Of a stretch of DNA of 64,000 nt, positions 20,331 to 60,555 are shown one piece after another; within the stretch, counting starts at the first letter, position 1, and every line of letters starts with the position of its first letter. Origin of the DNA: Serinicoccus hydrothermalis (GTDB lineage Bacteria; Actinomycetota; Actinomycetes; Actinomycetales; Dermatophilaceae); the NCBI RefSeq assembly GCF_001685415.1, contig NZ_CP014989.1:2914001-2978000 (forward strand), written 5' to 3'. The notes beneath the pieces were generated by a model. The model saw nothing but the letters and a program-made list of their open reading frames with translations. It did not search any database and was not told the DNA's origin. Position numbers and translations under genes: made by a program.

Positions 20331-20622
20331 GATGCACGTATGTTGCACGGAGTGGCCCAAACGGCACTGTGATGTGCGATATCCGCAGGTCAGCGAGTTT
20401 CACCTGGATGTCTTGTAAACAGGTGGTTGAGGGTTCGAGTCCCTTCGCCAGCTCTGAAATCGCTTGTGTCGCAGGCGATCTGGGCTCTGCCGTCTCCATT
20501 ACAGTCTGCTGTTCAGAACACAGGTAAGTCGGCCTGCGCAAAGTCACTGACCTGCGGTTTGTGGTGCAGGGCAGGTCGAGGGTGCTTTGGTCATCCGAGT
20601 CACTGATGCCCGTATGTTGCAC
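20331..20622 (+). repeat. Copy 1 of ~290-bp direct repeat with tRNA-Thr 3' half and two 18-bp motifs
   Basis: This 292-bp stretch matches 27284-27575 in the same orientation. Both ends carry the motif GATGCACGTATGNTGCAC: 20331-20348 exact, 20605-20622 with one change (GATGCCC). The motif start-to-start distance is 274 bp in both copies, and the tRNA-like segment begins 78 bp after the first motif in both, so they are colinear. The downstream part (TGTGTCGCAGGCGA, then ACAGGTAAGTC, then GAGGGTGCT) also aligns. It has the look of an integrase attachment region with arm sites around a tRNA-derived core, but no integrase is encoded nearby. No gene is supported in 20241-20788. Confidence 0.8.
20409..20455 (+). 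pseudogene. tRNA-Thr(TGT) 3'-half fragment
   Basis: From TCTTGTAAACAGGTGG onward the sequence reads as the anticodon loop (CTTGTAA, anticodon TGT), 3' anticodon strand, variable loop, a complete T arm (GAGGG-TTCGAGT-CCCTT) and the acceptor 3' strand CGCCAGC. The 5' side does not continue as a tRNA: CACCTG is followed by extra bases before TCTTG, and no D arm or 5' acceptor GCTGGCG is found. It is therefore a tRNA 3' fragment, as left at integration sites, not a working tRNA. Confidence 0.75.
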
Positions 20623-20788
20623 CTCGACGGATGGGGAGCAGGAGTGATTGCTCCCCTCGGCGCCCAGCTGCGGAGGTTGGGCGCGCTGCGCATCCGTCAG
20701 CATCACAGTTCCGCCGCCATCTGCAGCAGCCCCGTCGCGTTCAGCCACCCAAGTGCTTTCGGGTCCAGAGTGCGTGGCGGGTGTTCGG

Positions 20789-21304
20789 TCAGAGGGTCGC
20801 CAGGAGATATGACAGGACGAAGCCGGCTGCGGTCGCGAGGGCCACCGTGGGACCTCCTTCTTCGCCACCTGTGCCTTCGCCCAGGGACACGCCCAGCGCG
20901 ACATTCTCGGGTACGCCGTCGAGGGTGACCGCGGCGAGCAGCGCCATCCCGGCAGCCCCTTTCACTGAGGGTGCCGCGGCACGTTGTCCTTCCGTGGCAG
21001 CTTGCTTGTCCAGCTTGTCGCTGCCGCGGTCGGTGTCGTCACCCGTTCCGGCGGCGGCCCAGTCCAGCCATGCGCTGAGGAAGGTGAAGACCACCGCCCC
21101 CACGATCAGGCCTAGTCGCCACAGGCCGCCCTGCTCGTGCGCGTCCTCGAAGAGCTCGAACGCCAGCGCCGTGATGAGCGCCCCGGAGGCGAAGGCCAGC
21201 ATCGCGGCCAGCACCCGCTTGGGGATCTGGAACCGTCACCCGACCACGGCACCCAGCACGAGCGCGCTGGACCCGAGCAGACCGAGAGTCACTGCCTGCG
21301 TCAC
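20789..21304 (-). pseudogene. ZIP-like metal transporter gene with in-frame stop
   Basis: From a GTG at 21304 with GGGGAGGA upstream, the frame encodes 22 hydrophobic residues (TLGLLGSSALVLGAVVG), then TGA at 21236-21238, then continues in the same frame to 20789 with RFQIPKRVLAAMLAFASGA. The combined 170 residues resemble a short ZIP-family membrane protein with LDGVPENVALGVSL, a variant of the HxxPE metal-site motif. A 141-residue product could restart at the ATG at 21214, but it would lack the first membrane helix. A single-base nonsense mutation or a sequencing error explains it best. Confidence 0.65.
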
Positions 21305-21351
21305 GACTCACGTCCTCCCCTGCCTTGCGCTACCTCACCTGAGCACGGATA

Positions 21352-22431
21352 TCAGCGGGTCTGGTCGGGGTCGGTGGTGTCCCCTCCGCTGTGGCGCAGG
21401 GCGCGGGCCTTGTCCTCGTCCTCCTGCTCCTTCTCCTGCGCCGCGCGGATCTTGGCGTCGTCACGGGCGGGCAGTTGGATGTCCTTCTCGGCCTCGATGC
21501 CGGCGATGAGCTGACGGGACCGTTCCAGCTCGGCATCGACCTCGGCCCCGAGCAGCAGCGCGAGGTTGGTGATCCACAGGTAGAGCAGGAAGATGATCAC
21601 CCCGGCGAACGAACCGTAGGTGGCGCCGTAGCTGGAGAAGTTGGCGATGTAGAAGCCGAACGCGACCGAGATGAGGACCCAGACCAGGATCGCGAACGCG
21701 GCCCCGATGCTCAGCCACCGGAACTTCGGCTGCTTCACGTTGGGCGTGCTGTAGTACAGCAGCGCCACGAGCAGCATGACCAGGACCAGCACGACCGGCC
21801 ACTTGGCGATCTGCCACACGGTGACCACGGTCGACCCCAGGCCGATCGCCTCGCCGAGCGCCGTCGCCACCGGACCGGACACGATGAGCATGAGGGCGAT
21901 GAGCACCACCATGAGCACCATGACCAGGGTGATCAGGAGCATGACCGGGCGCAGCTTCCACACCGGCCGACCCTCCTCGATCTCATAGACCCGGTTCGTC
22001 GCGCGGCTGAACGCGGTGACGTAGCCCGAGGCCGACCACAGCGCGGTCGCCAGACCGATGACCAGGGCGAGCCCGGCACCCGGGGAGGTGGCCAACGACT
22101 GCACCACCGGCTCCAGGGTGGAGGACCCGGACTCGCCCAGCACGCTGCTCAGCACGGGCATCACCGCGCTGACGACCTGCTGGCTCTGCCCGACCAGTCC
22201 CAGCAGGGAGAAGATCGCGATGAGCGCCGGGAAGATGGCCAGCACGGCGTAGTACGTCAGCGCGGCCGCGAGGTCGGTGCACTCGTCGTCCAGGAACTCC
22301 CGGAACGCCTTGCCCGCGGTGTACTTCCACGCCGGCCCGGTCATCTGCGCCGGCGTGTCCGGCTTGTCCTCCCGCTCGGGCTCCGGGGCGTCCGCCTGCG
22401 CGGCCCTGCGTTCTGATGCCCTAGAGCTCAC
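21352..22431 (-). CDS. YihY/BrkB-family inner membrane protein
   Basis: A 359-residue YihY/BrkB (formerly RNase BN) family protein with about six membrane helices and hydrophilic ends. FLDDECTDLAAALTYYAVLAIFPA near residue 45 is the family signature (split here at the D/L boundary when read), and TYGSFAGVIIFLLYLWIT near residue 275 is the late conserved helix. The start is a GTG overlapping the DUF3618 stop (GTGA). It is the last intact gene of a leftward operon of small envelope proteins. Its molecular function is unsettled in the family. Confidence 0.9.
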   Translation of the reverse strand: MSSRASERRAAQADAPEPEREDKPDTPAQMTGPAWKYTAGKAFREFLDDECTDLAAALTYYAVLAIFPALIAIFSLLGLVGQSQQVVSAVMPVLSSVLGESGSSTLEPVVQSLATSPGAGLALVIGLATALWSASGYVTAFSRATNRVYEIEEGRPVWKLRPVMLLITLVMVLMVVLIALMLIVSGPVATALGEAIGLGSTVVTVWQIAKWPVVLVLVMLLVALLYYSTPNVKQPKFRWLSIGAAFAILVWVLISVAFGFYIANFSSYGATYGSFAGVIIFLLYLWITNLALLLGAEVDAELERSRQLIAGIEAEKDIQLPARDDAKIRAAQEKEQEDEDKARALRHSGGDTTDPDQTR

Positions 22432-22757
22432 CGCCGCACCCGCCGGGCGACCCCGATGATCAGCACCACTGCGGCCACGGCACCCAGCGCGGGGGCCAGC
22501 ACGCTGAGCACGTCCCGGTGGTCATCACTGTTCAACCTGGTCTTAACCTCACCCAGCCCGGCGTTGGCGCGGGTCTTGATCGACTCGACCTTGTCCCGGG
22601 CCTGCTTCTTCACGTCCAGGCGTTCGGTGAGCTCGTCGACGGTGTCGCCGAGCTCCTGCCGGTGCCGGGCGATGTCGGCCTCGATCTGTGCCGGGTCGCT
22701 GCTGGCCTCGTCCTGGGTGTTGTCGCTGTCGGGGTTCTCATGCGGTGTGGCGCTCAT
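22428..22757 (-). CDS. DUF3618 domain membrane-anchored protein
   Basis: A 109-residue protein. It has an acidic N-terminus, then the DUF3618 core (IEADIARHRQELGDTVDELT, residues 29-48), an amphipathic helical region, and a single C-terminal transmembrane segment (LAPALGAVAAVVLIIG) ending in arginines. The ATG at 22757 overlaps the Holin-X stop (ATGA), and its own stop overlaps the YihY start. The architecture suggests a membrane-tethered coiled helix facing the cytoplasm. Function is unknown, but the family commonly co-occurs with Holin-X and YtxH-like genes in actinobacteria. Confidence 0.88.
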   Translation of the reverse strand: MSATPHENPDSDNTQDEASSDPAQIEADIARHRQELGDTVDELTERLDVKKQARDKVESIKTRANAGLGEVKTRLNSDDHRDVLSVLAPALGAVAAVVLIIGVARRVRR

Positions 22758-23164
22758 GACTGGGCTGCCCCCTTGACCTGCTCGATGTCCTGCTTGACGT
22801 TGTCCACGGCACGTTCGGGCGCGGCCGGGGTGGCCTCCTGCACGCGTTTCTTGCCCACCAGCGACACCACCGCCGCTGCCGCGAACAGCAGCAGTGTCAC
22901 GATGCCGGCGGCGGCCCACGGGGGCAGCACCAGGGCGAGGGCCAGGATGGCCGTCGTGATCAGGGCGGCGATGCCGAAGAAGGCGAGCAGGCCACCGGCG
23001 CCGAACATGCCGATGCCCACGCCCGCGTTCTTGGCCTTGGCGCTCAGCTCAGCCTGCGCCAGGCGCATCTCGTCCCGGATGAGCGTGCTCGTCTGCTCGC
23101 TCATCCGCGCGATGAGCTCGCCCGTGGACGCATGATCGGTGTCGGGGGTGAACCTCTCAGCCAC
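22754..23164 (-). CDS. Actinobacterial Holin-X (phage holin superfamily III) protein
   Basis: A 136-residue protein with an N-terminal amphipathic helix (RMSEQTSTLIRDEMRLAQAE) and two hydrophobic hairpin segments from about residue 50, the layout of Holin-X proteins. The GTG at 23164 is chosen: AGGAGG lies upstream and it overlaps the end of the YtxH-like gene. Despite the name, such chromosomal copies are not linked to lysis; an envelope-stress role is more likely here. It sits in a four-gene operon with overlapping stops and starts. Confidence 0.87.
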   Translation of the reverse strand: MAERFTPDTDHASTGELIARMSEQTSTLIRDEMRLAQAELSAKAKNAGVGIGMFGAGGLLAFFGIAALITTAILALALVLPPWAAAGIVTLLLFAAAAVVSLVGKKRVQEATPAAPERAVDNVKQDIEQVKGAAQS

Positions 23165-23447
23165 GAGGCCCCTCCTGGTCATCACCCGCGAGGGCGGTGT
23201 CGGTGTCGACCTCCCACGGATCATCCATGCTGTCCCGGTCGCCGTCCTGGGCGTCGCTCAGCCGGCCCTTGGCCTGCTCGGTCACCCTCCCGGCCTGCTG
23301 CTTGGCCTTGTCCGCCTGCTCCTGCACCTTCGGGTGCCCCCACAGCTCCTGCGCCTTGGCGCTGATCTGCTCATACCTCTCCCGGCCCGCCCTGGCGCCC
23401 AGGACGTACCCGGCCCCGAAGGCGGTCGCCATCATGATCTTGCTCAT
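23157..23447 (-). CDS. YtxH-like general stress protein
   Basis: A 96-residue protein starting MSKIMMATAFGAGYVLGARAG, a short membrane helix with glycine-rich YtxH-like character, followed by the charged helical stretch ISAKAQELWGHPKVQEQADK. It is the first gene of the leftward operon, preceded by tandem operator-like sites at 23528-23553. YtxH-like proteins are linked to general stress in Gram-positive bacteria, but their function is not defined. The assignment rests on the N-terminal helix, size and gene context. Confidence 0.8.
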   Translation of the reverse strand: MSKIMMATAFGAGYVLGARAGRERYEQISAKAQELWGHPKVQEQADKAKQQAGRVTEQAKGRLSDAQDGDRDSMDDPWEVDTDTALAGDDQEGPRG

Positions 23448-23527
23448 CGTCTGCTCCTGACTGCAGAGGGGGTGTCGCGCGGACCCCGGACTGGGGCCGC
23501 GTCGCCTTGCTGTGGTGCCCAGCATGC

Positions 23528-23553
23528 GAATACGGTGTAAACGTACGGCGTAA
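23528..23553. promoter_or_regulatory. Tandem TetR-operator-like sites upstream of divergent stress genes
   Basis: GAATACGGTGTAAAC (23528-23542) is an imperfect version of the palindrome GTTTACGGTGTAAAC found at 25534. It overlaps a second TACGGCGTA core at 23544-23552. Both lie between the leftward YtxH operon and the rightward DUF4235 gene. The TetR regulator encoded 400 bp downstream is the obvious candidate to bind them. Confidence 0.6.
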
Positions 23554-23615
23554 TCGGAAGCCGTGCAAGCATGGCCTCGAGGGTCCGGGCCAAGACCAGG
23601 AAGTGGTGAGTTCCA

Positions 23616-23888
23616 GTGGGCGACAAGATGTGGAGTCTGGCGACGACGGCGGCGGCGATCGGTGGTGGGGTGATGGCCAAGAACGTCATCGAGACGACGT
23701 GGAAGTTCGTCACCGGCAGCAACTCCCCGAGCAACCCCGAGGACCCGGAGGTGGACTGGGGTGAGGCCATGGCTTTCGCGCTGGTCTCGGGGGCGATCGT
23801 GCAGCTGGTGCGGGTCAGCATCAACCACAAGTCCACGCAGGCGTTCGCCAAGCGCAAGGGACGCCTGCCCGAGTCGGTCGCGAGTTGA
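23616..23888 (+). CDS. DUF4235 membrane protein
   Basis: A 90-residue protein starting with GTG. DUF4235 features are visible: an N-terminal glycine/alanine helix (SLATTAAAIGGGVMAK), TWKFVTG near residue 28, and a second helix from about residue 48 (WGEAMAFALVSGAIVQLVR). It should have two membrane segments. It is divergent from the YtxH operon across the TetR-like sites and is followed after 66 bp by the TetR gene. Function of the family is unknown. Confidence 0.87.
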   Translation: MGDKMWSLATTAAAIGGGVMAKNVIETTWKFVTGSNSPSNPEDPEVDWGEAMAFALVSGAIVQLVRVSINHKSTQAFAKRKGRLPESVAS

Positions 23889-23954
23889 CCGCGACGGGGA
23901 CGACGAGCCGACACGCGGGGCGTGTGACAGGCTGGACTCCCAGGAGGTGTGCCG

Positions 23955-24677
23955 ATGAGCCCAGAGGAGCCGGACGAGGCGGGGTCCACGCGGCCGCCAC
24001 GCCTCAGCCGCGAGCGCATCGTCGAAGCTGGCCTGGCCAGTATCGAGGCTCATGGTGTGGACCAGATGACCATGCGCAGCCTGGGCCGCGACCTCGGGGT
24101 TGAGGCGATGGCCCTGTACCGGTACGTCTCCGGGCGAGAAGATCTGCTGGAGGCGGTCGTGGAGAGCCTCCTGGACGGGCTCATCGAGCGCGTGGAGGCC
24201 GCGCAGACCACCAGCTGGCAGGAATACCTGCAGCACGTCGCGCACGAGATCCGCCAGATGGCCCTGGCCAACCCCACGGCGTTCCCCCTGGTGGTCTCGC
24301 GGCACCCAGCGGCGCCCTGGCTGCGACCGCCCTTGCGCGACATCGCCATGGTCGAGCACCTCCTGGCCACCCTGTGCGAGCGAGGCTTCAGCGACGACCA
24401 AGCGGTGGACACCTACAAGGCCTTCACCAGCTTCCTCGTCGGGTATCTACTCTTGGAGGTTTCCACCCAGGTCGAGAATGTTGCCGCCGTGGACGAACCG
24501 ATGAACGAGGGCAGCGCCGACATCCCAGAGCAAGACACGAGGGAAGATGTCGACTTCGGGCAGGCGCCGCACGTGGTGCGGATGCGCGACCGCCTCAGCC
24601 AGGACCACAGCGAGGCCGAGTTCGAGACCGGCCTCGAGAGCCTGCTCAACCGCATCGAGAACACCGTCTCGCACTAG
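23955..24677 (+). CDS. TetR-family transcriptional regulator
   Basis: A 240-residue regulator with an N-terminal TetR helix-turn-helix: RLSRERIVEAGLASIEAHG, then TMRSLGRDLGVEAMALYRYV (residues 40-60), followed by an all-helical ligand/dimer domain of the TetR_C class. The ATG at 23955 follows AGGAGG by 7 bases and is preferred over a GTG six bases earlier. Three operator-like sites (23528, 24813, 25534) surround it, each before another gene of this island, so it is probably the local repressor of the envelope/stress set. Its inducer is unknown. Confidence 0.93.
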   Translation: MSPEEPDEAGSTRPPRLSRERIVEAGLASIEAHGVDQMTMRSLGRDLGVEAMALYRYVSGREDLLEAVVESLLDGLIERVEAAQTTSWQEYLQHVAHEIRQMALANPTAFPLVVSRHPAAPWLRPPLRDIAMVEHLLATLCERGFSDDQAVDTYKAFTSFLVGYLLLEVSTQVENVAAVDEPMNEGSADIPEQDTREDVDFGQAPHVVRMRDRLSQDHSEAEFETGLESLLNRIENTVSH

Positions 24678-24812
24678 CCCCCGGTCCGGCTGGGGTGCCC
24701 GCGATGGGCGCATCGGGCCACCCGCGGGTCAGGCGGCCGTCTGTACGCCCCTGAACCCACCCCGATGCCTCGGGTCTTTACCACCGCCGAGGTTGCGGTC
24801 TAACCTGTCGAT

Positions 24813-24827
24813 GTTTACAGCGTAAGC
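24813..24827. promoter_or_regulatory. TetR-operator-like site before glycosyltransferase-like gene
   Basis: GTTTACAGCGTAAGC matches the palindrome at 25534 with three differences and keeps the TAC/GTA half-site spacing. It lies 43 bp upstream of the ATG at 24870, within reach of a promoter for that gene. Confidence 0.55.
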
Positions 24828-24869
24828 AGTTCGTTCATTCGGCTGCGCCAGGCAGGGGTAGGAGGGCTC

Positions 24870-25436
24870 ATGGCCGTCGCGTGCAGTGAGTTCGTCCCGT
24901 CAGTCCGGCCGGCGCGTCCGCGGGTCGCGGTCGTGACGGTGGTCCGAGGCGAGCATGGGGCGCTGTTGGCCCAGGTCGACGGACTGTCGGCGAGCACGTG
25001 GCCCCCCGACGTGCATGTCACCCTCGCGGTCGCGGATCGAGAGCTGAACCGCAACAAGCTGCCGATACGGTCCGACCGGTGGGAGACCTTCATCGTCTCA
25101 GGCGGGGACCTGCGACGAGCTCCCAGGGCCGCCTTCCAGTCCTCGGTGATGCATGCCTGCGACGTGGCAATGAACGCTGGTGCTGAAGTGCTCGTGTTCG
25201 TCGATGTCCGGTGCCTGCCAGGCCGGCGCCTGCTGCAGACCTACGCCGAGCACGCCGCCAACAGTACCCAGACAACCCCAGTCCTGTGGAGCGCCGCCGA
25301 GGCCGTGCAGCTGGACGTACCACCGGGGACCGTGTATCCCGTCTCGGGCGGGCTGGGGTCCCTCATCACATCAACACCGGTCCTCACCCACCCGAGCCCG
25401 ACGACGGGACCGGCGATCGCGGTGGCAGGGTCCTAG
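24870..25436 (+). CDS. Glycosyltransferase family 2-like protein, apparently truncated
   Basis: A 188-residue protein. The N-terminal half resembles a GT-A glycosyltransferase: a strand followed by VVTVVRGEHGALLAQVDGLS, an NRNKLP segment like those seen in polyprenyl-type family 2 enzymes, and AGAEVLVFVDVRCLPGRRL near residue 104, where a DxD-type acidic motif would sit (here DVR). Related proteins usually continue for another 80-120 residues; this one ends soon after PVSGGLGSLIT. It may be a truncated remnant or a short variant. A TetR-like operator precedes it. Confidence 0.6.
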   Translation: MAVACSEFVPSVRPARPRVAVVTVVRGEHGALLAQVDGLSASTWPPDVHVTLAVADRELNRNKLPIRSDRWETFIVSGGDLRRAPRAAFQSSVMHACDVAMNAGAEVLVFVDVRCLPGRRLLQTYAEHAANSTQTTPVLWSAAEAVQLDVPPGTVYPVSGGLGSLITSTPVLTHPSPTTGPAIAVAGS

Positions 25437-25533
25437 GCCGCCGCTAACCGCCATGCGGTGGTTCACGTGGTCCTCGAGCCGAGCGGTGGCACGGTGCTCG
25501 TCTGGGTTGCGGGGTCATCGTCGGGGCGCTTAC

Positions 25534-25548
25534 GTTTACGGTGTAAAC
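25534..25548. promoter_or_regulatory. Perfect palindromic TetR-type operator
   Basis: GTTTACGGTGTAAAC is a perfect 6+3+6 palindrome; with the flanking C and G it extends to 17 bp. It lies 46 bp upstream of the PRC-barrel/DUF2382 start codon and is the best of three related sites around the island's TetR gene. Confidence 0.7.
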
Positions 25549-25593
25549 GGACGGTGCATCAGGGCGCCGGCCACCATCACAGGAGGTTTCCAC

Positions 25594-26445
25594 ATGTGGA
25601 ACGAGGAACAGATCCAGTCCCTGCACAACGACGGTGTGGTCGTCGACCAGGATGGGGAGAAGGTCGGCAAGGTCGGCCAGGTCTACCTGGAGGACTCGAC
25701 CGGTGAGCCCGCATGGGTGACGGTCAAGACTGGGCTCTTCGGCACCTCGGAGTCCTTCGTGCCCCTGCAGGGCGCCACCGTGCAGGACCAGGAGGTCCGG
25801 GTGCCGTACACCAAGGACCAGGTCAAGGACGCCCCCCGGGTCGAGGAAGACGGCCATATCTCCGTGGAGGAAGAGCGCGAGCTGTACTCCTACTACGGCG
25901 GCCGGGACGGCCAGAAGAACGCGAACAACGGCGCACCAGCCACCCGCGACCAGGAAGACACCCGCACCGGCACCACTAGCCGAACCGACACCGCAACGGG
26001 CATGACCGACAGGACGGATACCGCCGCAGGCGCCGACGACACTGGGCGCGGCACCTACGACACCGACTCGGACGCCAGCATGGTCCGCTCCGAGGAGCAG
26101 CTGAACGTCGGCACCGAGAAGGTCACCACCGGCAAGGCCCGCCTGCGCAAGTACGTCGTCACCGAGCACGTCACCAAGACCGTCCCCGTCCAGCGTGAGG
26201 AGGTCCGCATCGAACGCGAGCCCCTCGATCAGCAGGACCGGGACCGCCTGTCCGGGGCCGACCTCGTCGAGGACGAGCAGGAAGTCACCCTCACCGAGGA
26301 CCAGGTCGTCGTCGACAAGGAGACCGTTCCCGTGGAAGAGGTCCGTCTCGACACTGACACCGTCACCGAGGAGCAGCAGGTCAGCGACGAGGTCCGCAAG
26401 GAGCAGATCGACACCGACCTGCCCGACCAGCACCGCAACCACTGA
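25594..26445 (+). CDS. PRC-barrel and DUF2382 (YsnF/AvaK-type) stress protein
   Basis: A 283-residue, very hydrophilic protein. Residues 1-100 form a PRC-barrel (GVVVDQDGEKVGKVGQVYLE). A Thr/Asp-rich linker follows (TGTTSRTDTATGMTDRTDT), then DUF2382 from about residue 165 to the end (RSEEQLNVGTEKVTTGKARL and KYVVTEHVTKTVPVQREEVR). The ATG at 25594 follows AGGAGG by 7 bases. YsnF-type proteins are general stress proteins of unknown mechanism. The perfect TetR-type palindrome just upstream suggests tight control by the neighbouring regulator. Confidence 0.92.
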   Translation: MWNEEQIQSLHNDGVVVDQDGEKVGKVGQVYLEDSTGEPAWVTVKTGLFGTSESFVPLQGATVQDQEVRVPYTKDQVKDAPRVEEDGHISVEEERELYSYYGGRDGQKNANNGAPATRDQEDTRTGTTSRTDTATGMTDRTDTAAGADDTGRGTYDTDSDASMVRSEEQLNVGTEKVTTGKARLRKYVVTEHVTKTVPVQREEVRIEREPLDQQDRDRLSGADLVEDEQEVTLTEDQVVVDKETVPVEEVRLDTDTVTEEQQVSDEVRKEQIDTDLPDQHRNH

Positions 26446-26451
26446 CCCACA

Positions 26452-26500
26452 CCCCACCCGCGTCGGCCCTATCCCAACTGGGGGTGGGGCTGACGCGTGC
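26452..26500 (+). terminator. Possible terminator after DUF2382 gene
   Basis: CCCCACCC (26452-26459) can pair with GGGTGGGG about 30 bases later, and CGCGTC with GACGCG, giving two competing GC-rich stems just after the DUF2382 stop. No long T tract follows, so the call is tentative. Confidence 0.35.
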
Positions 26501-26635
26501 GTTCCTGGGCATGAGGCGGCACACCGCCGGGCCGCCCTGATGCTCTCACCAGGCTCATTCGCGGATGCGCGGATTGAAAACTCAACGTTCGAGGTCAGGT
26601 CGTGCAGGACAGCAGAACCAGCTGCGCTTCCGGAC

Positions 26636-26922
26636 ATGAAGTAGGCAATCCGCGGCTGCATCACCGAGTCCAGAAGCACGCCGGGCTGCCTGTCCCGTTA
26701 GGCAGAGGTTCTCGACGAGGTCACCAACGACCGCGAGAGGAGGTCGTCGTCACGCGCGCCGGCCACGAGCCGGTCGTCATCGTCTCGCTGGCGGACTACG
26801 AGTCGTTGCGCGAGACGGCATACCTCATGCGCTCACCCGCCAACGCCCGACGGCTGCTCGACGCCATGGAGCGCCTCGAGGCTGGCGGTGGGTAGACGCA
26901 CGAGCTGATCGAGGCGGACTGA
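26636..26922 (+). pseudogene. Decayed YefM/Phd-family antitoxin gene
   Basis: The frame from ATG 26636 reaches ITESR, then AEVLDEVTNDRE, then in a shifted frame EEVVVTRAGHEPVVIVSLAD and SPANARRLLDAMERLEAGGG, finally THELIEAD: in order, a YefM-type antitoxin. It carries a stop at codon 3, an 18-bp extra segment containing another stop before AEVL, a 2-bp frameshift near 26735 (an extra AG), and a stop at 26893 before THELIEAD. The toxin-like gene follows immediately. No functional antitoxin can be made. Confidence 0.75.
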
Positions 26923-26927
26923 CCGGG

Positions 26928-27183
26928 GTGCTGCTGGTCTGGGACGAGCACGCCTGGGAGGACTACCTCTGGTGGCAGTCGCAGGACCACAAAGTCCTCA
27001 AACGCATCAACCTGCTCCTGAAGGACATCCAGCGCAACGGCCATGCGGGGATCGGCAAACCCGAAGCGCAAGCACGACGTCGCCGACTACTGGTCACGGC
27101 GGATCACCGACGAGCACCGACTCATCTACAAGATCGCCGCGCACGAGATCCGCATCGCCGCCTGCCGCTACCACTACGGATAG
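26928..27183 (+). pseudogene. Frameshifted YoeB/Txe-type toxin gene
   Basis: From GTG 26928 the product starts LLVWDEHAWEDYLWWQSQD and KVLKRINLLLKDIQRNGHAG, a clear YoeB-family mRNA interferase. Near 27063 the frame breaks, and the remainder (KHDVADYWSRRITDEHRLIY, then RIAACRYHYG and stop) lies in another frame. About two bases are missing relative to the family. The C-terminal catalytic His/Tyr segment is thus separated from the N-terminus. Together with the decayed antitoxin this is a dead toxin-antitoxin module at the island edge. Confidence 0.78.
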
Positions 27184-27283
27184 GCGCTACCAGCGGCACG
27201 ACGTTGATGTACCGACCGCCTGCTCGAGGGGGACGACCTCTGGGTGGCACAGCGGCCACGAGGAGCCAAGACGGTCCTCTCCT

Positions 27284-27575
27284 GATGCACGTATGATGCA
27301 CGACACCGTCGAAACGCCTCTATGTGGACGATGTGCGCAGGTCAGCGCGCTATGGCTGGGAGTCTTGTCAATAGGCGGTTGAGGGTTCGCGCCCCTTCGC
27401 CAGCTCTGAGATCGCCTGTGTCGCAAGCGAGTTGGGCTTTGAGGTCTCTACCTCGGTCTTCGGTGCGAAAAACAGGTGAGTCCGGCAGTCGGGCATCTCT
27501 GAGCTGCGATTTCGTGACCCAGTACAGTGCGAGGGTGCTGGCCCCATTTTAGTTGCCGATGCACGTATGCTGCAC
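27284..27575 (+). repeat. Copy 2 of ~290-bp direct repeat with tRNA-Thr 3' half and two 18-bp motifs
   Basis: Same layout as 20331-20622: the motif GATGCACGTATGNTGCAC at 27284-27301 (N=A) and 27558-27575 (N=C), with the tRNA-derived core beginning 78 bp after the first. The two copies have diverged noticeably but stay colinear, so they are old. Together they bracket the ZIP-to-YoeB island. The gap 27184-27726 holds this repeat and a short AT-richer stretch ending in a run of T (about 27703-27709); no gene is supported there. Confidence 0.8.
27362..27407 (+). pseudogene. Degenerate tRNA-Thr 3'-half fragment
   Basis: GTCTTGTCAATAGGCGG, then TTGAGGGTTCGCGCCCC, then TTCGCCAGCTCT follows the tRNA-Thr 3' half of copy 1, with changes in the anticodon loop (CTTGTCA) and T loop. 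No 5' half is present. It is more decayed than copy 1 and cannot be a working tRNA. Confidence 0.7.
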
Positions 27576-27726: not shown

Positions 27727-28443
27727 TCAGCGTGTAGGCGCGCCCCCAGCGATGGGGGTCGTGATACGCCCGTCGACGACCGTGACGAGATCATCCAGGG
27801 TGTCGCGGTGCCCGAGGTCGTGGGTGACGAGCAGGGTGGCGGTGTCGCGTTCGTGGGTGAGGCGAGAGATGAGTTCCATGATCTTCGCTCCGCGTTCTTG
27901 ATCCAGGGCGCTGGTCGGCTCATCAACGAGGAGGACTTCGGGTTCGTGGACGAGGCCGCGGGCGATCGCGACCCGTTGCCGTTCCCCGCCGGAGAGCTGG
28001 TGCGTGCGCTTGCCTGCGTGCTCGGTGAGGCCGACGGCGTCGAGGAGTTCGTCGGCACGGGCGTCGATCTTCGCTCGCTGGTTCCGGCTGGTGCCGCCGC
28101 CGAGCCTGGCCATGACCTGCAACTGCTCGCGCGCCGTGAGCGCGGGCAGCAGGTTGGACTGCTGGAACACGATGCCGATGCGCTCACGGCGCAGTTGCGT
28201 GGCCTCGTGCTTCGAGAGCTGGGCGGCGTCGGTCATGTCGCTGCTGTTGCCGATGAGAACTCCGCCAGAGTCGGGGCGAAGAAGGGTCGCGGCGACGGCG
28301 AGGATGCTGGACTTGCCCGACCCGGAGGGGCCGGTGATGCCGGTGACGGTGCCGTTGGTCCCGCGGAGGGTGACGTTGTCAACGGCGGTGATGCGGTTCT
28401 CCCCGTCGGGGAAGGTGAGGGTGACGTTCTGTAGTTGAATCAT
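27727..28443 (-). CDS. ABC transporter ATP-binding protein (MacB/LolD-like)
   Basis: A 238-residue ATPase. Walker A GPSGSGKS near residue 38, Q-loop FQQSNLLP near residue 92, signature LSGGERQRVAIARGL near residue 147 and Walker B VLLVDEPTSALD near residue 168 are all intact. The sequence type is that of lipoprotein-release and antimicrobial-peptide exporters that pair with FtsX-like permeases. Its ATG overlaps the stop of the permease gene upstream (ATGA), so the two form one transporter. A two-component system is divergently encoded. Confidence 0.93.
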   Translation of the reverse strand: MIQLQNVTLTFPDGENRITAVDNVTLRGTNGTVTGITGPSGSGKSSILAVAATLLRPDSGGVLIGNSSDMTDAAQLSKHEATQLRRERIGIVFQQSNLLPALTAREQLQVMARLGGGTSRNQRAKIDARADELLDAVGLTEHAGKRTHQLSGGERQRVAIARGLVHEPEVLLVDEPTSALDQERGAKIMELISRLTHERDTATLLVTHDLGHRDTLDDLVTVVDGRITTPIAGGAPTR

Positions 28444-29531
28444 CGGTTGCTCCCAAGGGCGGTGAGGGGGTCGGCTTTGGTGACGGAGCGCAGCGCGAAC
28501 GCGCCTCCTGCGAGGCCGAGGACCGCCATCACGACGGCTGGGGCGACAGTGGTGATCGGGCTGATGATGAACGGGAGCGCCTGCCCCGCGAGGGTGCCGA
28601 GCCCGATCACGGCGGCGAGGCCGACACCGATCCCGGCGACCAGAACGATGGACGCCTGGCCGAGTGAGTCGCGCACGAGCGACCCGGTGGTCGCACCGAG
28701 GGCTTTGAGCACGGCCATGTCGCTGGCACGCTGCATCGTCCAGACCGTGAAGAACGCGCCTACGACGAGGGCGGAGATCCCGAACAGCATCGCGATCATC
28801 AGCCCGAGCGACCCGATCTCGGATCGGAACGCTTCCAGGGCGGTCAAGCTCGCCAGCGGTGTTTCGGCGACCGTGCCGGTTGCTGCACCTATGGCCTCCC
28901 AGTCTGCGTTGCCGGTGACGGCGAGCACCGTCGCTTCGCCGGTGCCGCCGACGCGCTGACTTGCCTCGCTCCACGCCTCCGGGGTCAAGACGATGACCGG
29001 GGTGTGGCTGTACCAAAGATCATCGCCGACGACGCTGACGGTGAAATCAGTGCCGGTGATCGAGATCGTGTCACCAGTCTCGACGCCGAGACCATCGGCG
29101 GCCCCGGAGGAGACACCGACCTGGTCGTCGTGAACCGGGGCGAGGGCGAACAGCGGGTTCGACTGGGCACCCGAAGCACGCTGCGGCAGCCCGTAGAGCG
29201 CAACCCCGGTCGGGTCGTCGGTGCCGCTGGCCGAGGCCCGCGATTGGACGATCCCGATGGGTGTCACCGACTCGACCCCGTCCGCCTGTTCCCATGCCGT
29301 GACCGTGTTCTCGTCGAGGGAGGAGGTTGCGTAGCTAGGGTCGCTGCTCTCGGGCTGCTGCAGCACGAGCCGGTCCCCGGGCAACTGCAGCACGGAGGAG
29401 ATGTTCTGTGCGGCCAGACCCCCGGTGAGGCCGGAGAGGAAGCCGACGAGCAGGGTGATCAGGGCGACGACGGCCCCGATGAGGAGAAATCGGCCGCGGG
29501 CGAACCGCAACTCTCTCCACGCGACGAACAC
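28440..29531 (-). CDS. FtsX-like ABC transporter permease (MacB type)
   Basis: A 363-residue permease starting at GTG 29531. One N-terminal membrane helix (LLIGAVVALITLLVGFLSGL) precedes a periplasmic-type domain of about 200 residues, then three C-terminal helices with the FtsX pattern (MQRASDMAVLKALGATTGSL). With the downstream ATPase it forms a MacB/LolCDE-like mechanotransmission exporter. The divergent histidine kinase/response regulator pair probably controls it, as in envelope-stress and antibiotic-sensing modules of Gram-positive bacteria. Confidence 0.9.
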   Translation of the reverse strand: MFVAWRELRFARGRFLLIGAVVALITLLVGFLSGLTGGLAAQNISSVLQLPGDRLVLQQPESSDPSYATSSLDENTVTAWEQADGVESVTPIGIVQSRASASGTDDPTGVALYGLPQRASGAQSNPLFALAPVHDDQVGVSSGAADGLGVETGDTISITGTDFTVSVVGDDLWYSHTPVIVLTPEAWSEASQRVGGTGEATVLAVTGNADWEAIGAATGTVAETPLASLTALEAFRSEIGSLGLMIAMLFGISALVVGAFFTVWTMQRASDMAVLKALGATTGSLVRDSLGQASIVLVAGIGVGLAAVIGLGTLAGQALPFIISPITTVAPAVVMAVLGLAGGAFALRSVTKADPLTALGSNR

Positions 29532-29612
29532 GATGATGCCTTTCCGCTCGCGCACTCTGCCCGAGCTACCCTCCAACTCTCCTTCGCGCAGGCAGGGCCG
29601 GGCATCGCCCAA

Positions 29613-29629
29613 ACCGTGGGATTCACGGT
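29613..29629. promoter_or_regulatory. Inverted repeat between ABC exporter and two-component genes
   Basis: ACCGTGGGATTCACGGT is a perfect 6-bp inverted repeat with a 5-bp spacer, midway in the 150-bp divergent region. On the leftward strand, TATGAC preceded 16 bp upstream by TTGCCC abuts it; on the rightward strand, TTGATG (29641) and CATAGG (29665) precede the kinase ATG closely. It is a candidate binding site for the LuxR-type response regulator. Confidence 0.45.
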
Positions 29630-29681
29630 CATACTTTCGGTTGATGGCCGGGCAACACCGCTCGCATAGGCTTGGAGCGTC

Positions 29682-30878
29682 ATGTCGCATTCGACCCTCG
29701 CCCCGGTGTTCACCGGTCTCCGGTTCGGCCTGCACACCCTCCTGATCGGGCTCGCGGGCTTCACGGTTGTGCGCGCATACGTCGTCTCCTCGCCGGCTGC
29801 GACATGGACGCTGGTCATGGGGATCGCGTTCGTCGCGGTGTATCTCGCGGGTGCATGGGCGGCGCGGGCACAAGGCGAGTCAGGAGTGTCCCGGCGCGGT
29901 GACGCCGTCGGCTGGATCGCCGCGCTCACGCTGTTGTGGGCGGTGCTGACGTGGCTGAGCCCCGAGGGGGCCTACCTCGTCTTCCCGCTGTTCTTCCTCT
30001 ACCTCCACGTCCTGCCCGGACGTGGAGGGGTCGCGGCGATCGTGGTCACGACCGCGTTCGCGATCCTCGCCCTCGGCCTCCATCTAGGGTTCAGCGTCGG
30101 CGGGGTGATCGGCCCACTGGTGGGCGCCGGCGTCGCCCTACTGATCGGGCTCGCCTACCGTGCGCTTCGGCGTGAAGCCGAAGAGCGCGAACGGCTCGTT
30201 GCCGAGCTGATCCGCACTCGGCAACACCTCGCCCAGACCGAACGCGAACAGGGCGCACTGGCGGAGCGCGCCCGACTCGCTCGTGAAATTCATGACACCG
30301 TCGCCCAGGGCCTGTCCTCGATCCAGATGCTGTTGCGTGCCGCTGAACGCGACACCCCCGAACCCGGTGCCGGGTACGTGCGGCTCGCCCGCGAGACCGC
30401 GGCCGACAGCCTCGCGGACACGAGGCAGATCATCCGCGAGCTCACCCCGACCCGCCTCGGCGACGGACTCGCCCCCGCCCTGCACCGCCTCGGTCAGGAA
30501 CAGTCCGACCGCGCGTCCATCCCTGTCGAGGTGAGTGCCGAGGAACTCGACTTGCCGATGGGAACCCAGATCGCGCTGTTGCGGATCTTTCAGGGCGCGC
30601 TTTCGAACACGATCCGCCACGCGAATGCCACCCGCATCACCGCCGAACTCACCCGAGGCAACGCCACGGTATCTCTGGTGGTACGCGATGACGGCCGCGG
30701 CTTTGAGGTGTCCTCCGCGGTCGCCGACTCGCACGAGGCCGACTCCTTCGGGTTGCACGCCATGCGTGAGCGCCTCGAACAACTCGACGGCACCCTCACC
30801 ATCGCCTCGGCCCCCCAACAGGGCACCACGGTCACCGCGCGACTGCCGCTCCTCCCCGGAAGCGAGGCGGCATCGTGA
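29682..30878 (+). CDS. Sensor histidine kinase (HisKA_3, NarL/LiaS type)
   Basis: A 398-residue membrane sensor kinase. About five hydrophobic segments fill residues 10-165 with no large extracellular domain. A charged coiled region follows (EAEERERLVAELIRTRQHLA), then HisKA_3 with the phospho-acceptor His204 in AREIHDTVAQGLSS, and a HATPase domain with NTIRHAN near residue 309 and DDGRGFEV near residue 340. Intramembrane-sensing kinases of this layout often respond to envelope stress. Its stop overlaps the response-regulator start. Confidence 0.94.
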   Translation: MSHSTLAPVFTGLRFGLHTLLIGLAGFTVVRAYVVSSPAATWTLVMGIAFVAVYLAGAWAARAQGESGVSRRGDAVGWIAALTLLWAVLTWLSPEGAYLVFPLFFLYLHVLPGRGGVAAIVVTTAFAILALGLHLGFSVGGVIGPLVGAGVALLIGLAYRALRREAEERERLVAELIRTRQHLAQTEREQGALAERARLAREIHDTVAQGLSSIQMLLRAAERDTPEPGAGYVRLARETAADSLADTRQIIRELTPTRLGDGLAPALHRLGQEQSDRASIPVEVSAEELDLPMGTQIALLRIFQGALSNTIRHANATRITAELTRGNATVSLVVRDDGRGFEVSSAVADSHEADSFGLHAMRERLEQLDGTLTIASAPQQGTTVTARLPLLPGSEAAS

Positions 30879-31495
30879 TCCGGATCGTGCTTGCCGATGA
30901 CCACCCCGTCGTCCGCACGGGCTTGCGGGCGATGCTCTCAGGCGACCCCGACCTCGACGTGATCGGGGAAGCGGCAACCCCTGACGATGTCGTCGCCCTC
31001 GCGAGCGATCTGATACCGGACGTGGTGCTCATGGACTTGCAGTTCGGCACCGACCAGACCGGAGCCGACGCGACCCGCCGCATCCGCGCACTCCACCATC
31101 CGCCTGCCGTGCTGGTGCTCACGAACTACGACACCGACAGCGACATCCTCGGCGCCGTCGAAGCCGGAGCCAGCGGCTACCTCCTCAAAGACGCCCCACT
31201 CGAGGAGCTCATCGCTGCAATCCGCGCCGCAGCCGCAGGCGAGACCGCCCTCGCCCCCGCGATCGCGGGACGACTGCTCGCCCGGATGCGTTCCCCGCAA
31301 CCCAACCTCAGCGCCCGCGAGACCGAAGTGCTGCGACTCGTCGCAAACGGCGCGACGAACAACGACATCGCGGCACGACTGCATATCAGCGACGCGACAG
31401 TGAAATCACACCTCGTGCACATCTACACCAAGCTCGGCGTCTCCTCCCGCACCGCCGCCGTCGCTTCTGCACGTGACTCCGGCCTACTGTGGTGA
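30875..31495 (+). CDS. LuxR-family (NarL-type) response regulator
   Basis: A 206-residue response regulator beginning at a GTG that overlaps the kinase stop. The receiver domain has the acidic pair near residue 9 (LADDHP), phospho-acceptor Asp54 (VVLMDLQFG) and Lys near residue 104 (YLLKDAP). A LuxR-type helix-turn-helix spans about 145-200 (LSARETEVLRLVANG, then HISDATVKSHLVHIYTKLGV). It pairs with the upstream kinase and likely regulates the divergent ABC exporter through the inverted repeat at 29613. Confidence 0.95.
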   Translation: MIRIVLADDHPVVRTGLRAMLSGDPDLDVIGEAATPDDVVALASDLIPDVVLMDLQFGTDQTGADATRRIRALHHPPAVLVLTNYDTDSDILGAVEAGASGYLLKDAPLEELIAAIRAAAAGETALAPAIAGRLLARMRSPQPNLSARETEVLRLVANGATNNDIAARLHISDATVKSHLVHIYTKLGVSSRTAAVASARDSGLLW

Positions 31496-52167: not shown

Positions 52168-52586
52168 GCGAGCTCGGTCCACCCCGCGAGTGGCTCATGC
52201 AGCCCCGCTGGCTGCCGACGCTGCGCGCCTCGATCGGGATCGCCGTGATCCTCAGCGCCGTCCTGGCGCTCGCCCTCACCTGGCCCTGGCGGGTCGTCGA
52301 GGTGCTGCTGGCCCTGCTCTGGCTCGGGTATGGCGTCTTCCTGGTCTGGGCGAGCCGGCGCGAGCACAGCGGCACCCGGCTGGAGCAGGACGCGCTGCTG
52401 GTGACCTCCGGCAAGGAGGTGGAGCGGCTGACCCGGGCCGACATCCTCGACCTGCGGACCGACCAGCCGGGGAGACGCGCTTGGCGGGTCCAGGCCGTCC
52501 ACCGCGACGGGCGCCGGGTGACCCTGCTCGGCGTGCCGCCCGGCGAGCTCGACCGGCTGCGCCGCTGGCACGTGGGTGCCGGGTGA
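52164..52586 (+). CDS. Small PH-domain-like membrane protein (C)
   Basis: A 140-residue protein starting at a GTG that overlaps the DUF2945 stop. Two membrane helices lie in residues 20-65 (ASIGIAVILSAVLALALTW, then VVEVLLALLWLGYGVFLVW). The beta domain follows (GTRLEQDALLVTSGKEVERL), and the ending TLLGVPPGELDRLRRWH matches the two other PH-like proteins. It is the last core gene before the McrBC insert. Confidence 0.8.
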   Translation: MSELGPPREWLMQPRWLPTLRASIGIAVILSAVLALALTWPWRVVEVLLALLWLGYGVFLVWASRREHSGTRLEQDALLVTSGKEVERLTRADILDLRTDQPGRRAWRVQAVHRDGRRVTLLGVPPGELDRLRRWHVGAG

Positions 52587-52640
52587 CGCGTCGGTAGAGG
52601 GCTATTTCGGGCCGTGCAGTGACGCTCTACGCAGGCGGCT

Positions 52641-53837
52641 TCACCTCGCCGAAAAGTCGCCCTGGTGGGCGATGTCACGGGCCAGCGTTGCCACCTGCGC
52701 CTGAAGCTCTGGGACCGGACGGTGCAGTTGGAGTACATGGCGCCGGATCACGATGTCGGAATTGCGGACCATCACGGGGGACTGGTCCGCGTCGCCCTCC
52801 GCGTAGACCAGGTGACCGATCCTCAGGGCGGTGGCGGTGCAGTACGCCAGCAACTGATAGAGGTCCGCGTAGGGGAACCCAGCGGGTGACTCGGCTTTGT
52901 ACTTGGCGTCGACCACGGCTCGAACAGCCCCACTCGGGGCGTACCACACGAGGTCGGGGCGCAGCCTGATGGCGCCGTCTTCGTCCATAGGGTGACTCTG
53001 GTCCTGCGGTGCGCAGCGACCGCCGGAAGTCTGCAAAGCCTGTGTCAGGGCAGTGGTGACGAAGTCTTCGAAGGCGGTGTTCATGTTGACGAGGAACCCC
53101 GTGGCGCGCACGCCGGCGTTGGCGATGTCGATCGATCGAGTGGCCAGCACCATGCGTGCGAGCGTCAGCGCTGGCTGGTAGTGCTGGTTGAGCCTGCTCT
53201 GGGTGACGTGGGGCAGCCGCTGACCAGGGACCAGACGGCCCACGTCGTGAAGTCTGCTGATCAGATGCCGTAGGCGCCGAACGATGACCGGCGGGTGGTC
53301 CGGAGACTTGAGGAGTCGCTCCGCTGCTGCACGCAGGATCTGGTTCTCGGGTACGTCGACGTCGTACTCGTCATACCGGAGTTCGAGAGGGGTCGCGATC
53401 CCGGCGCGTGTGCGCAGTTGATCCGCAGCACGAAGTCTTCCGCGCAGCACTGGCAGAGCGGACTCCTCGGTGCGATACCCCTGAAGGATGCCGCGTTCCG
53501 TGGCTTTCTCTGCCTGGCGGACGAAGACCTGCGCCATGGCGGGCCACAGGTCGGGTTGGTCGTCCAGGTCGACAGGATCCTCTGTCCACACCCTCGGGTT
53601 CTGTGCGTAGCCAAGCAAGTACAGAAGGCGTGCGACGGGGATCCTCGGGCGGATGCGGATCTCGGTCTCACCGGCGCGCAGGACACCGACGAAGGAACTG
53701 GCGCGCACGGTCCACGTTCCCGCCTGCCACCCCGGTGACACGTCGACGGCACGCGACGCGGCGAGCGCTCGGACATCGCTCTGGTCAAGGCCTGTCGCTT
53801 GGGTAGCACCCCAGGCCTCCAGTTCGAGACGTGTCAT
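52641..53837 (-). CDS. mcrC: McrC-like endonuclease subunit of McrBC restriction system
   Basis: A 398-residue McrC-family protein. ETEIRIRPRIPVARLLYLLG near residue 56 is the typical N-terminal beta region; the C-terminal nuclease core shows RPDLVWYAPSGAVRAVVDAK, then YKAE, a PD-(D/E)xK arrangement. McrC cleaves DNA when activated by the McrB GTPase bound at modified cytosines. Its ATG overlaps the McrB stop (ATGA). The base composition is less GC-rich than flanking genes, as for McrB. Confidence 0.92.
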   Translation of the reverse strand: MTRLELEAWGATQATGLDQSDVRALAASRAVDVSPGWQAGTWTVRASSFVGVLRAGETEIRIRPRIPVARLLYLLGYAQNPRVWTEDPVDLDDQPDLWPAMAQVFVRQAEKATERGILQGYRTEESALPVLRGRLRAADQLRTRAGIATPLELRYDEYDVDVPENQILRAAAERLLKSPDHPPVIVRRLRHLISRLHDVGRLVPGQRLPHVTQSRLNQHYQPALTLARMVLATRSIDIANAGVRATGFLVNMNTAFEDFVTTALTQALQTSGGRCAPQDQSHPMDEDGAIRLRPDLVWYAPSGAVRAVVDAKYKAESPAGFPYADLYQLLAYCTATALRIGHLVYAEGDADQSPVMVRNSDIVIRRHVLQLHRPVPELQAQVATLARDIAHQGDFSAR

Positions 53838-55690: not shown

Positions 55691-55821
55691 GAAAGACATG
55701 GAACCCAATCGACGTGGCATGTGACAAGGCCTGCCTGGTCCTGGGCGTCGAGATCCAGCCCGTCGACTCCCTGCCCGCGAAATCGTTCTACAGCGCTTAC
55801 AGCCGGAGTAGGGTGTCGCAG

Positions 55822-57171: not shown

Positions 57172-57214
57172 TCCTCGCCGCGCCACCCGGCCGACGACAT
57201 ACCGGAGGGAACCC

Positions 57215-58879: not shown

Positions 58880-58925
58880 GCGACCCGGGCAGGCGTCTGT
58901 CGGTGCCCCGACCTAGGCTCGGCGC

Positions 58926-59345
58926 ATGAGCTTCGGGAGCATCGCGCGGACCGTCGGCCGGATCGCGCTCGGCGGGACCTTGATCTTCACCGGGACCTCG
59001 CACCTGACGGTGGCGCGCGAGGAGTTCCAGGCGCAGGTGCCCTCCTGGGTGCCGCTCGACCCGGACCTCGTCGTCGTGCTGTCCGGCATCGCCGAGGTCG
59101 GGCTCGGGGCGGCGCTGGTCGCGCTGCCGCGGTGGAAGGTGCCGGTCGGGTGGGCCGCCGGCGCCTTCTTCGTCGCGATCTTCCCGGGCAACATCGCCCA
59201 GTACGTCGAGGGCAAGGACGGCTTCGGCCTCGACACCGACCAGGCACGGCTCACCCGGCTCTTCTTCCAGCCGGTGCTCGTCGCCTGGGCGCTCTGGTCG
59301 ACCGAGGCGTGGAAGACCTGGCGGGAGTCCCGCCGGGAGAGCTGA
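58926..59345 (+). CDS. DoxX-like small membrane protein
   Basis: A 139-residue protein with about four hydrophobic segments. The start RIALGGTLIFTGTSHLTVAR near residue 12, SGIAEVGLGAALVALPRWKV in the middle and ALWSTEAWKTW at the end match the DoxX-like layout. Members are poorly characterised; some take part in redox complexes. It is 47 bp from AbgT and convergent with the next gene. Confidence 0.82.
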   Translation: MSFGSIARTVGRIALGGTLIFTGTSHLTVAREEFQAQVPSWVPLDPDLVVVLSGIAEVGLGAALVALPRWKVPVGWAAGAFFVAIFPGNIAQYVEGKDGFGLDTDQARLTRLFFQPVLVAWALWSTEAWKTWRESRRES

Positions 59346-59363
59346 GGGTATGCCGTTCGCGCG

Positions 59364-59711
59364 TCAGCGCCGGTCGATGACCAGCGCTGCCGCGTTGAGC
59401 GCGGCCCAGGTCAGCGGGACGCCGGCGAGCTTGGCCCGCCCGGACTCCGGCCCGGTGGCGCCGAGGATGGCGGCGTCCCCCAGATCACCGGTGATCCGCA
59501 GCAGTCCGGCCACCGGCGCCAGACCCGGCACGAAGGCGAGGGCGCTGGTGCTGAGGTCGCGCACGGTGTAGGTCCACGCCAGCCGGTCGGTGGCCTGCGC
59601 CGCCGCACCGCTCTCGTCGAGCGCGGAGGACAGGTGACCCGGGCGGACGGCGGCGAAGACGGCATACCCGGCGGTCAGCGCCGCCATGGTCTTGGTGAGG
59701 GGGTAGCTCAT
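59364..59711 (-). CDS. Small membrane protein, unknown
   Basis: A 115-residue protein with hydrophobic segments at both ends and in the middle (ALTAGYAVFAAVRPGHLSSA near the N-terminus, TSALAFVPGLAPVAGLLRIT in the middle). No family was recognised beyond a general four-helix DUF-like layout. It is convergent with the DoxX-like gene and lies downstream of the SDR/dehydrogenase pair on the same strand, 55 bp away. Confidence 0.7.
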   Translation of the reverse strand: MSYPLTKTMAALTAGYAVFAAVRPGHLSSALDESGAAAQATDRLAWTYTVRDLSTSALAFVPGLAPVAGLLRITGDLGDAAILGATGPESGRAKLAGVPLTWAALNAAALVIDRR

Positions 59712-59765
59712 CCCTCGACCCTAGGTGCCCGGTCCGTGCGTCGCGAGGCAGGCGGCCAGGCCGGC

Positions 59766-60554: not shown

Positions 60555-60555
60555 G

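Follow-up and report, generated by a model that had tools for sequence, protein, structure and literature searches.

Double-armed tRNA-Thr attachment sites around integrase-less gene cassettes, probably stacked in tandem, in Serinicoccus hydrothermalis

The locus

The window that we analysed is a stretch of 64,000 nucleotides of the chromosome of Serinicoccus hydrothermalis (positions 2914001-2978000; the chromosome is a single 3.6-Mb contig). Our subject is a pair of repeats within it, R1 (20331-20622) and R2 (27284-27575), each of which contains the 3' half of a tRNA-Thr(TGT) gene, together with the genes behind them, here called cassette A (between R1 and R2) and cassette B (to the right of R2). 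The repeats are 73% identical over an alignment of about 300 bp, and each carries two copies of an 18-bp motif, itself composed of two TGCAC boxes 11 bp apart; the copies start at 20331 and 20605 in R1 and at 27284 and 27558 in R2, with a spacing of 274 bp within each pair. A sequence-only reading of the window had reported these colinear repeats of about 290 bp and their four motifs, and all of the motif positions are confirmed. At up to three mismatches the motif is matched four times in the window against 0.11 expected, and none of 100 shuffled sequences reached four.

The tRNA half, or core, begins 78 bp after the start of the first motif in R1, as that reading had it for both repeats, but 77 bp after it in R2. 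We call the arm to the left of a core P and the arm to its right P'. The features of the two repeats are the following.

20331-20348, plus strand: P-arm motif of R1, two TGCAC boxes; P arm of the 39.6-kb integrase element described below, 78 bp before a core starting TGTCTTG, the integrase-type geometry
20385-20395, plus strand: conserved GCAGGTCAGCG block left of the R1 core (GCAGGTCAGC, 92% over 11 P arms)
20409-20455, plus strand: R1 core, tRNA-Thr(TGT) 3' half, 47/47 against the intact gene at genome position 2894786
20459-20479, no strand assigned: imperfect inverted repeat ATCGC..GCGAT directly after the R1 core, kept in cassette P' arms
20545-20555, minus strand: inverted partner of the GCAGGTCAG block (CTGACCTGC on the plus strand), in the P' arm
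20605-20622, plus strand: P'-arm motif of cassette A, 149 bp after the core, one mismatch
27284-27301, plus strand: P-arm motif of R2, the right arm of cassette A
27337-27347, plus strand: conserved GCAGGTCAGCG block left of the R2 core
27361-27407, plus strand: R2 core, six mismatches to the tRNA 3' half
27558-27575, plus strand: P'-arm motif of cassette B

One of the six mismatches of the R2 core lies in the anticodon loop (CTTGTCA for CTTGTAA). This loop is otherwise found only in the copy of one relative (G021), and 15 of the 17 cassette cores described below retain CTTGTAA.

The repeats have no tRNA 5' half, and no intact tRNA lies within the window. The sequence-only reading had advised looking for an intact tRNA-Thr(TGT) with an integrase beside it, and both are found outside the window, 39.6 kb before the R1 core: the tRNA at genome positions 2894758-2894831 and, starting 140 bp past its last base, the gene of a tyrosine integrase of 374 amino acids (tRNA and integrase together, 2894758-2896095) with PF00589 and N-terminal domains in Pfam. 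One motif copy stands between the two genes. Since the R1 core is identical to the 3' half of this tRNA over 47 of 47 positions, we read the 39.6 kb from the tRNA to R1 as an integrase-bearing element that ends rightward at R1; it has the arrangement left by tyrosine integrases that target tRNA genes, with the integrase beside the intact tRNA and a displaced 3' fragment at the far end. Its best phage match is the record MT835972 (58% identity); mycobacteriophage integrases, that of Georgie2 among them, reach 41%.

An empty site is available for a related integrase element: the right flank of the tRNA in the relative G020 matches the right flank of the attR site of G008, starting at the core (286 bp at 88.8%, continuing piecewise over about 3.3 kb). 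A pair of single-nucleotide differences in the core between these two genomes places the crossover leftward of the T arm, consistent with a position in the anticodon loop. For the integrase element of S. hydrothermalis itself the empty-site comparison is only the joint of tRNA and cassette A in G030.

Arms of the attachment sites across the genus

We collected core sites from loci fetched from a genus set of 31 genomes (Ornithinimicrobium in GTDB's sense, with S. hydrothermalis as G000), and measured arm distances on those sites. They fall into two layouts. Integrase elements have their P motif 78 bp to the left of the core and their P' motif 104-107 bp to its right, followed by an integrase gene or pieces of one (13 P' sites). 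In cassettes the P motif, where present, lies 76-78 bp before the core, and the P' motif lies 148-152 bp after it, with no integrase. Cassette-type P' sites, defined by a motif with at most four mismatches at the cassette distance (the G026 copy has four), number 17 in 7 of the 31 genomes: three in G000, two in G011, two in G021, one in G026, four in G028, three in G029 and two in G030. The 17 do not include a fragment like a P' arm that lies at the edge of a contig (G029 C15:78), nor a motif-less cassette-like site (G029 C6:293507); the latter was added back in one of the conservation analyses below. In 20 genomes a site is preceded by the tRNA 5' half; among these the arm beside the tRNA is of integrase type in 12, of cassette type in five and absent in three; the other 11 genomes, without such a site, are left out of these locus counts, G018 being among them and yet having an integrase-type P' arm.

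R1 is a hybrid of the two layouts, with an integrase-type P arm, the core and a cassette-type P' arm, as the joint of two stacked elements must be. The order in S. hydrothermalis is tRNA-Thr, integrase element (39.6 kb), R1, cassette A (6.9 kb), R2, cassette B, and each element consists of a P' arm, cargo and a P arm. The tRNA stays whole because its 3' half, starting near the anticodon loop, comes from the element. The sequence-only reading had recognised attP-like regions of the form arm-core-arm and a mobile or formerly mobile unit between them, and the structure of R1 and R2 and the sites of the genus bear out both; it had also remarked that two conserved arms are unusual for attL or attR. 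Both arms are indeed present, and tandem stacking explains this, each joint keeping the P arm of the element on the left and the P' arm of the one on the right. That reading needs correction on how the repeats belong to the elements. R1 and R2 as attL and attR of a single element had to be rejected: each is a joint of two neighbours, the left arm of R1 has the geometry of the integrase element and belongs leftward, and the right end of A is R2. The proposal of a family of short tRNA-bearing elements holds as far as the family goes (17 sites in seven genomes); elements carrying whole tRNAs were rejected, only the restoring 3' half being carried.

A third joint of S. hydrothermalis, R3, lies elsewhere on the chromosome (2306278-2306581, minus strand; L013:8279-8582), with both motifs; the 18 kb fetched with it contain no tRNA. 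R3 adjoins complex I genes and a transposase-like gene; in the close relative G021 the same complex I genes are inside the tRNA-Thr array, and the position of R3 suggests a rearrangement.

The motif and the tRNA-Thr-type integrases

The table of integrases and motifs had 38 rows, of which 12 duplicates and five truncated rows were set aside. The paired boxes stand 30-41 bp before the start of all 13 distinct tRNA-Thr-type integrases; they stand 34 bp before two of eight distinct relatives (50-57% identity), two more having them with one mismatch and four lacking them. A second integrase lineage (52-54% identity) has the box pair CCTGCACGTATCCTGCAC in front, in G026, G028, G029 and G030 (L184:6386, L185:6016, L190:6458, L191:1690).

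An exact 16-base form of the motif occurs in 27 of 186 genomes of the family, and its backwards control in none of the 186. Within the genus, 51 of 52 hits either fall within an attachment region identified by similarity or directly precede an integrase (matched by eye). Random scatter away from tRNA cores, which the sequence-only reading had named as fatal to its proposal, is thus not what is seen; the single exception (G026 C34:19538) precedes a cassette, and no core was found there. Other genera gave nine hits, and the five inspected comprise two with tRNA-Thr(TGT), motif and integrase, one with an integrase and two with tRNA-Pro. The motif between tRNA-Thr(TGT) and integrase thus occurs in one genome each of two other genera. 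In the tRNA-Pro cases (L192:1501-1516 and L195:1501-1516) it lies about 50 bp behind tRNA-Pro(GGG), and no related integrase was detected in the short locus. A looser search (18 bases, two mismatches) found the motif in 21 of 58 relatives, with one hit of the backwards control (G012) and several two-mismatch hits without an attachment context. A plasmid search with R1 gave no match. Viral contigs gave a single AT-rich hit next to a gene resembling that of a DNA polymerase, and we took this hit for chance.

These numbers bear on the idea that the repeats are chance or functionless sequence around an ordinary chromosomal operon. Related stress clusters do occur at other chromosomal places in relatives, but four motifs against 0.11 expected, the empty backwards control, and a third copy in the same genome with 14 more cassette sites in six other genomes make this idea extremely improbable; the sites in relatives are enough to refute it.

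For the conservation of the arms we chose nine cassette P' arms whose neighbouring cargoes differ (46-63% identity over nucleotides 170-420), the two nitrate-reductase cassettes being counted apart. The motif is 93.8% identical among them against 58.1% elsewhere in the arm, a difference reached in none of 20000 random draws of columns. In 11 P arms the motif is 93% identical and the rest 55.8%, the second block, GCAGGTCAGC, reaching 92%. From its sequence context, we read the motif as the paired arm-type site of the tRNA-Thr-type integrases. Its conservation in units without an integrase would mean that the sites are still used, an argument weakened by the shared descent of the ends and by the choice of sites.

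Cassette contents and the lack of an integrase

Cassette A is a stress operon of 6.9 kb, and cassette B an ABC-transporter and two-component operon. Twenty proteins, including the integrase and a second recombinase, were submitted to Pfam, and further operon genes were named by eye from open reading frames (ORFs).

20789-21214, minus strand: cassette A, protein of 141 amino acids, no Pfam match
21352-22431, minus strand: cassette A, YihY/BrkB-family membrane protein (PF03631, 8e-65)
22428-22919, minus strand: cassette A, ORF containing a DUF3618 protein (PF12277)
22754-23224, minus strand: cassette A, Actinobacterial Holin-X family protein (PF07332)
23616-23888, plus strand: cassette A, DUF4235 protein (PF14019)
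23949-24677, plus strand: cassette A, TetR-family regulator (Pfam)
24870-25436, plus strand: cassette A, protein of 188 amino acids, no Pfam match
25594-26445, plus strand: cassette A, PRC-barrel/DUF2382 protein (PF05239, PF09557)
26602-26895, plus strand: cassette A, Phd/YefM-type antitoxin; the partner ORF behind it looks disrupted
27727-28443, minus strand: cassette B, ABC transporter ATPase
28440-29873, minus strand: cassette B, MacB/FtsX-like permease, ORF extent taken from the first start codon
29682-30878, plus strand: cassette B, histidine kinase
30875-31495, plus strand: cassette B, LuxR-type response regulator

Other cassettes carry, by Pfam, nitrate reductase beta, multicopper oxidase domains, an NADH dehydrogenase subunit, TerC and a Cthe_2159-type protein. 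None of the 60 PF00589 matches in the seven cassette genomes falls inside a cassette stretch that could be delimited (several arrays are broken over contigs and B has no marked right end, which limited these stretches; serine recombinases were not searched for). With the integrase as query, tblastn matched two of 18 loci, L012 and L116. Behind the 17 cassette P' arms neither an integrase nor a remnant of one was found; conjugation genes were not searched for.

One could explain this lack by decay, the cassettes being remnants of formerly autonomous tRNA-Thr elements that lost their integrase in place, with nothing moving now. Decay of this kind is classically that of cis-mobilizable elements (CIMEs), described in the excerpt of PMC5704250 as integrative and conjugative elements (ICEs) or integrative and mobilizable elements (IMEs) minus their integration and transfer genes, with attL and attR retained. 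Cassette A has such flanks (R1 and R2), and the cassettes have no integration genes as far as tyrosine recombinases go. Decay would also fit the degraded R2 core, the absence of the P motif at G029 110057 and of the P' motif at G029 C6:293507, and the transposase genes seen by eye in several arrays. It accounts less well for the lack of any remnant behind the 17 P' arms, for an arm distance consistently unlike that of integrase elements (148-152 against 104-107 bp), and for motifs conserved between diverged flanks, although this last point is weaker once the selection bias is undone. We consider decay somewhat unlikely.

The part of the 39.6-kb element that lies in the window (1-20240) appears, by eye only, to hold genes of fatty-acid or aromatic degradation (coenzyme A ligases, a short-chain dehydrogenase/reductase, electron transfer flavoproteins), together with a tricarboxylate-type transporter. 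An apparent second tyrosine recombinase and small partner genes are common to the integrase elements of G000, G010 and G008 (L014:5380-6495 and neighbours; L144; L145), and in two of these three a neighbour resembles, by eye, a cadmium transporter; this region is perhaps a nested transposon.

Switching and spread of cassettes

At the 17 sites the 145 nucleotides to the right of the core group by the cargo on the right (A 83-91%, B 77-97%), and the 75 nucleotides to its left group by the left neighbour. The left partner of the P' arm of A is the tRNA in G030, the integrase element in S. hydrothermalis and a nuo cassette in G021. That of the P' arm of B is the tRNA in G026, a 14.6-kb nar cassette (cassette C) in G011, cassette A in G000, G021 and G030, and other cargo in G029. 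Where G026 has the tRNA directly before B, two different integrase-less cassettes have thus come to lie between them in other genomes, joined at the core, and across these sequences the order of cassettes varies among genomes with a switch at the core.

Homologous recombination between the repeated joints might do the same, with no role for an integrase after the first insertion. The joints do have in common a 47-bp core within about 290 bp of related sequence, and the cassettes do stand in differing orders. However, a first placement beside a bare tRNA would have only about 46 bp in common, which is little for homologous exchange, and exchange alone does not account for motifs conserved in arms otherwise 58% identical. 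As the main cause we find it improbable, more so than decay.

The kinase of B occurs in six of the 31 genomes, S. hydrothermalis included; in the other five it is 98-99% identical at the amino acid level and always has a cassette-type core to its left (one more match, the seventh, reaches only 54% identity). The kinase gene of S. hydrothermalis is 97-98% identical at the nucleotide level to those of G011, G026, G029 and G030, whereas recA is 91.7-92.5% identical and the gene neighbouring the tRNA 85-87%. A kinase gene above the identity of recA between species argues for horizontal spread of B.

The sequence of B shared with other genomes stops sharply at about 31500, beyond which the others have different sequence or sequence resembling an insertion sequence (IS); one IS-looking sequence stands directly behind the response regulator of B in G011, G021 and G029. 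No further core or motif marks an end of the array in the window. The right flank of the tRNA in G016 matches pieces of 52188-63901, so that sequence from about 52 kb is probably native; there is no attachment site there.

Discussion

We think it probable that integrative elements stand in a tandem array at tRNA-Thr(TGT), that R1 and R2 are attachment sites at the junctions between them, and that A and B belong to an integrase-less family moved in trans by a tRNA-Thr-type integrase. The architecture, the switching at the core, the association of motif and integrase and the horizontal spread of B can be read from the sequences compared here. As to mechanism, the integrase would bind the paired TGCAC boxes on both arms with its N-terminal part, exchange strands in the anticodon loop, and insert and excise cassettes in trans, now or until recently. 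Islands without a recombinase of their own were in this way probably moved by a helper integrase. Cassette A of S. hydrothermalis is itself probably stuck, because the R2 core has changed within the presumed crossover region.

Several observations weigh against this interpretation. Movement in trans is inferred, not drawn from an observed excision or transfer, and cassettes could also be reshuffled if the 290-bp joints recombine by homology. The R2 core is degraded, and five cassette genomes (G011, G026, G028, G029 and G030) have no tRNA-Thr-type integrase at the locus. No P arm was found at the right end of B in six genomes, where IS-like sequence stands in some. The choice of sites by the motif (at most four mismatches) favours its conservation: when B is represented by its worst copy, the motif falls to 89.2% against 57.2%, and with the motif-less site added to 76.2% against 53.9% (1 of 20000 draws), another 18-base block then being higher (81.0%). 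The P' arm of G029 C11:110057 (L109:16058) more closely resembles those of other cassettes (83%) than that of the copy sharing its cargo (66%), which might mean that recombination also occurs between arms and cargo. Finally, relatives with the genes and no flanking repeats, which the sequence-only reading had named as evidence against a mobile unit, exist in part: four have diverged A-like gene clusters elsewhere (about 75-85% identity at the nucleotide level), around which the repeat search was negative. In G020 and G008 (L143, L162) a diverged YihY cluster (71-76%) lies some kb to the right of the tRNA-Thr locus with no joints found, perhaps an older or native version.

A broader reading, which we offer tentatively as possible rather than probable, is a whole family of trans-mobilised cargo: at least half a dozen unlike operon sets for respiration, stress and transport, with the same double-armed tRNA-Thr ends and no integrase, would enter, leave and change places in an array anchored at the tRNA through the integrases of passing elements, as a tRNA counterpart, at operon scale, of the integron cassette array. 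If cassettes do move in trans, one tRNA gene is a docking station through which species swap whole respiratory and stress operons, and integrase-less islands that look immobile are not so. The case can be tested, attachment sites, a candidate integrase and natural junction variants all being available, and doubly conserved arms, odd in a single genome, become a signature of tandem stacking.

Comparison with known systems

Integron gene cassettes form a modular cargo array that relies on one recombinase. The array described here is somewhat alike in being modular; its cores are tRNA halves and its units operons of about 4-20 kb (attC sites and IntI were not searched for). Our search of the open-licence literature found no publication on this system.

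Tycheposons, as the excerpt of PMC10872708 presents them, are bounded by tRNAs and carry cargo and their own tyrosine recombinase; the cassettes, without that recombinase, are something else. Additive flexible genomic islands (PMC10872708; for Actinomarinales, PMC7771536) are alike in having variable cassettes at a tRNA and repeated marks of tRNA fragments, but the excerpts of these two papers describe neither arm sites nor a matching integrase for their cassettes. The attP sites of the mycobacteriophages CrimD, L5 and Giles, in the part of PMC3203893 that describes them, have pairs of arm-type sites (11 bp in CrimD) flanking a core of tRNA or transfer-messenger RNA. These phages own their integrase, whereas most cassette joints here have none, and the likeness is one of arm layout.

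Closer still are the ssrA islands of Dehalococcoides, 15 of 31 of which lack an integration module according to the excerpt of PMC3146451; they too are stacked behind one RNA gene, with 3' fragments as separators and respiratory cargo. They use a serine recombinase and a 20-bp repeat, whereas here we find a tyrosine integrase, and most joints have paired arm sites to the left and to the right. The tandem accretion of ICEs, IMEs and CIMEs, in the excerpt of PMC5704250, likewise yields tandem elements with common attachment cores, some without an integrase. The cassettes differ from lone, decayed copies of a known ICE in being an integrase-less family in 7 of 31 genomes of a genus, with their own conserved arm geometry and varied operons. 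Of the known systems, the ssrA islands of Dehalococcoides and tandem accretion with CIMEs come nearest, and mycobacteriophage attP resembles the joints in arm layout; an integrase-less family with a double-arm geometry of its own sets the present case apart as a variant.

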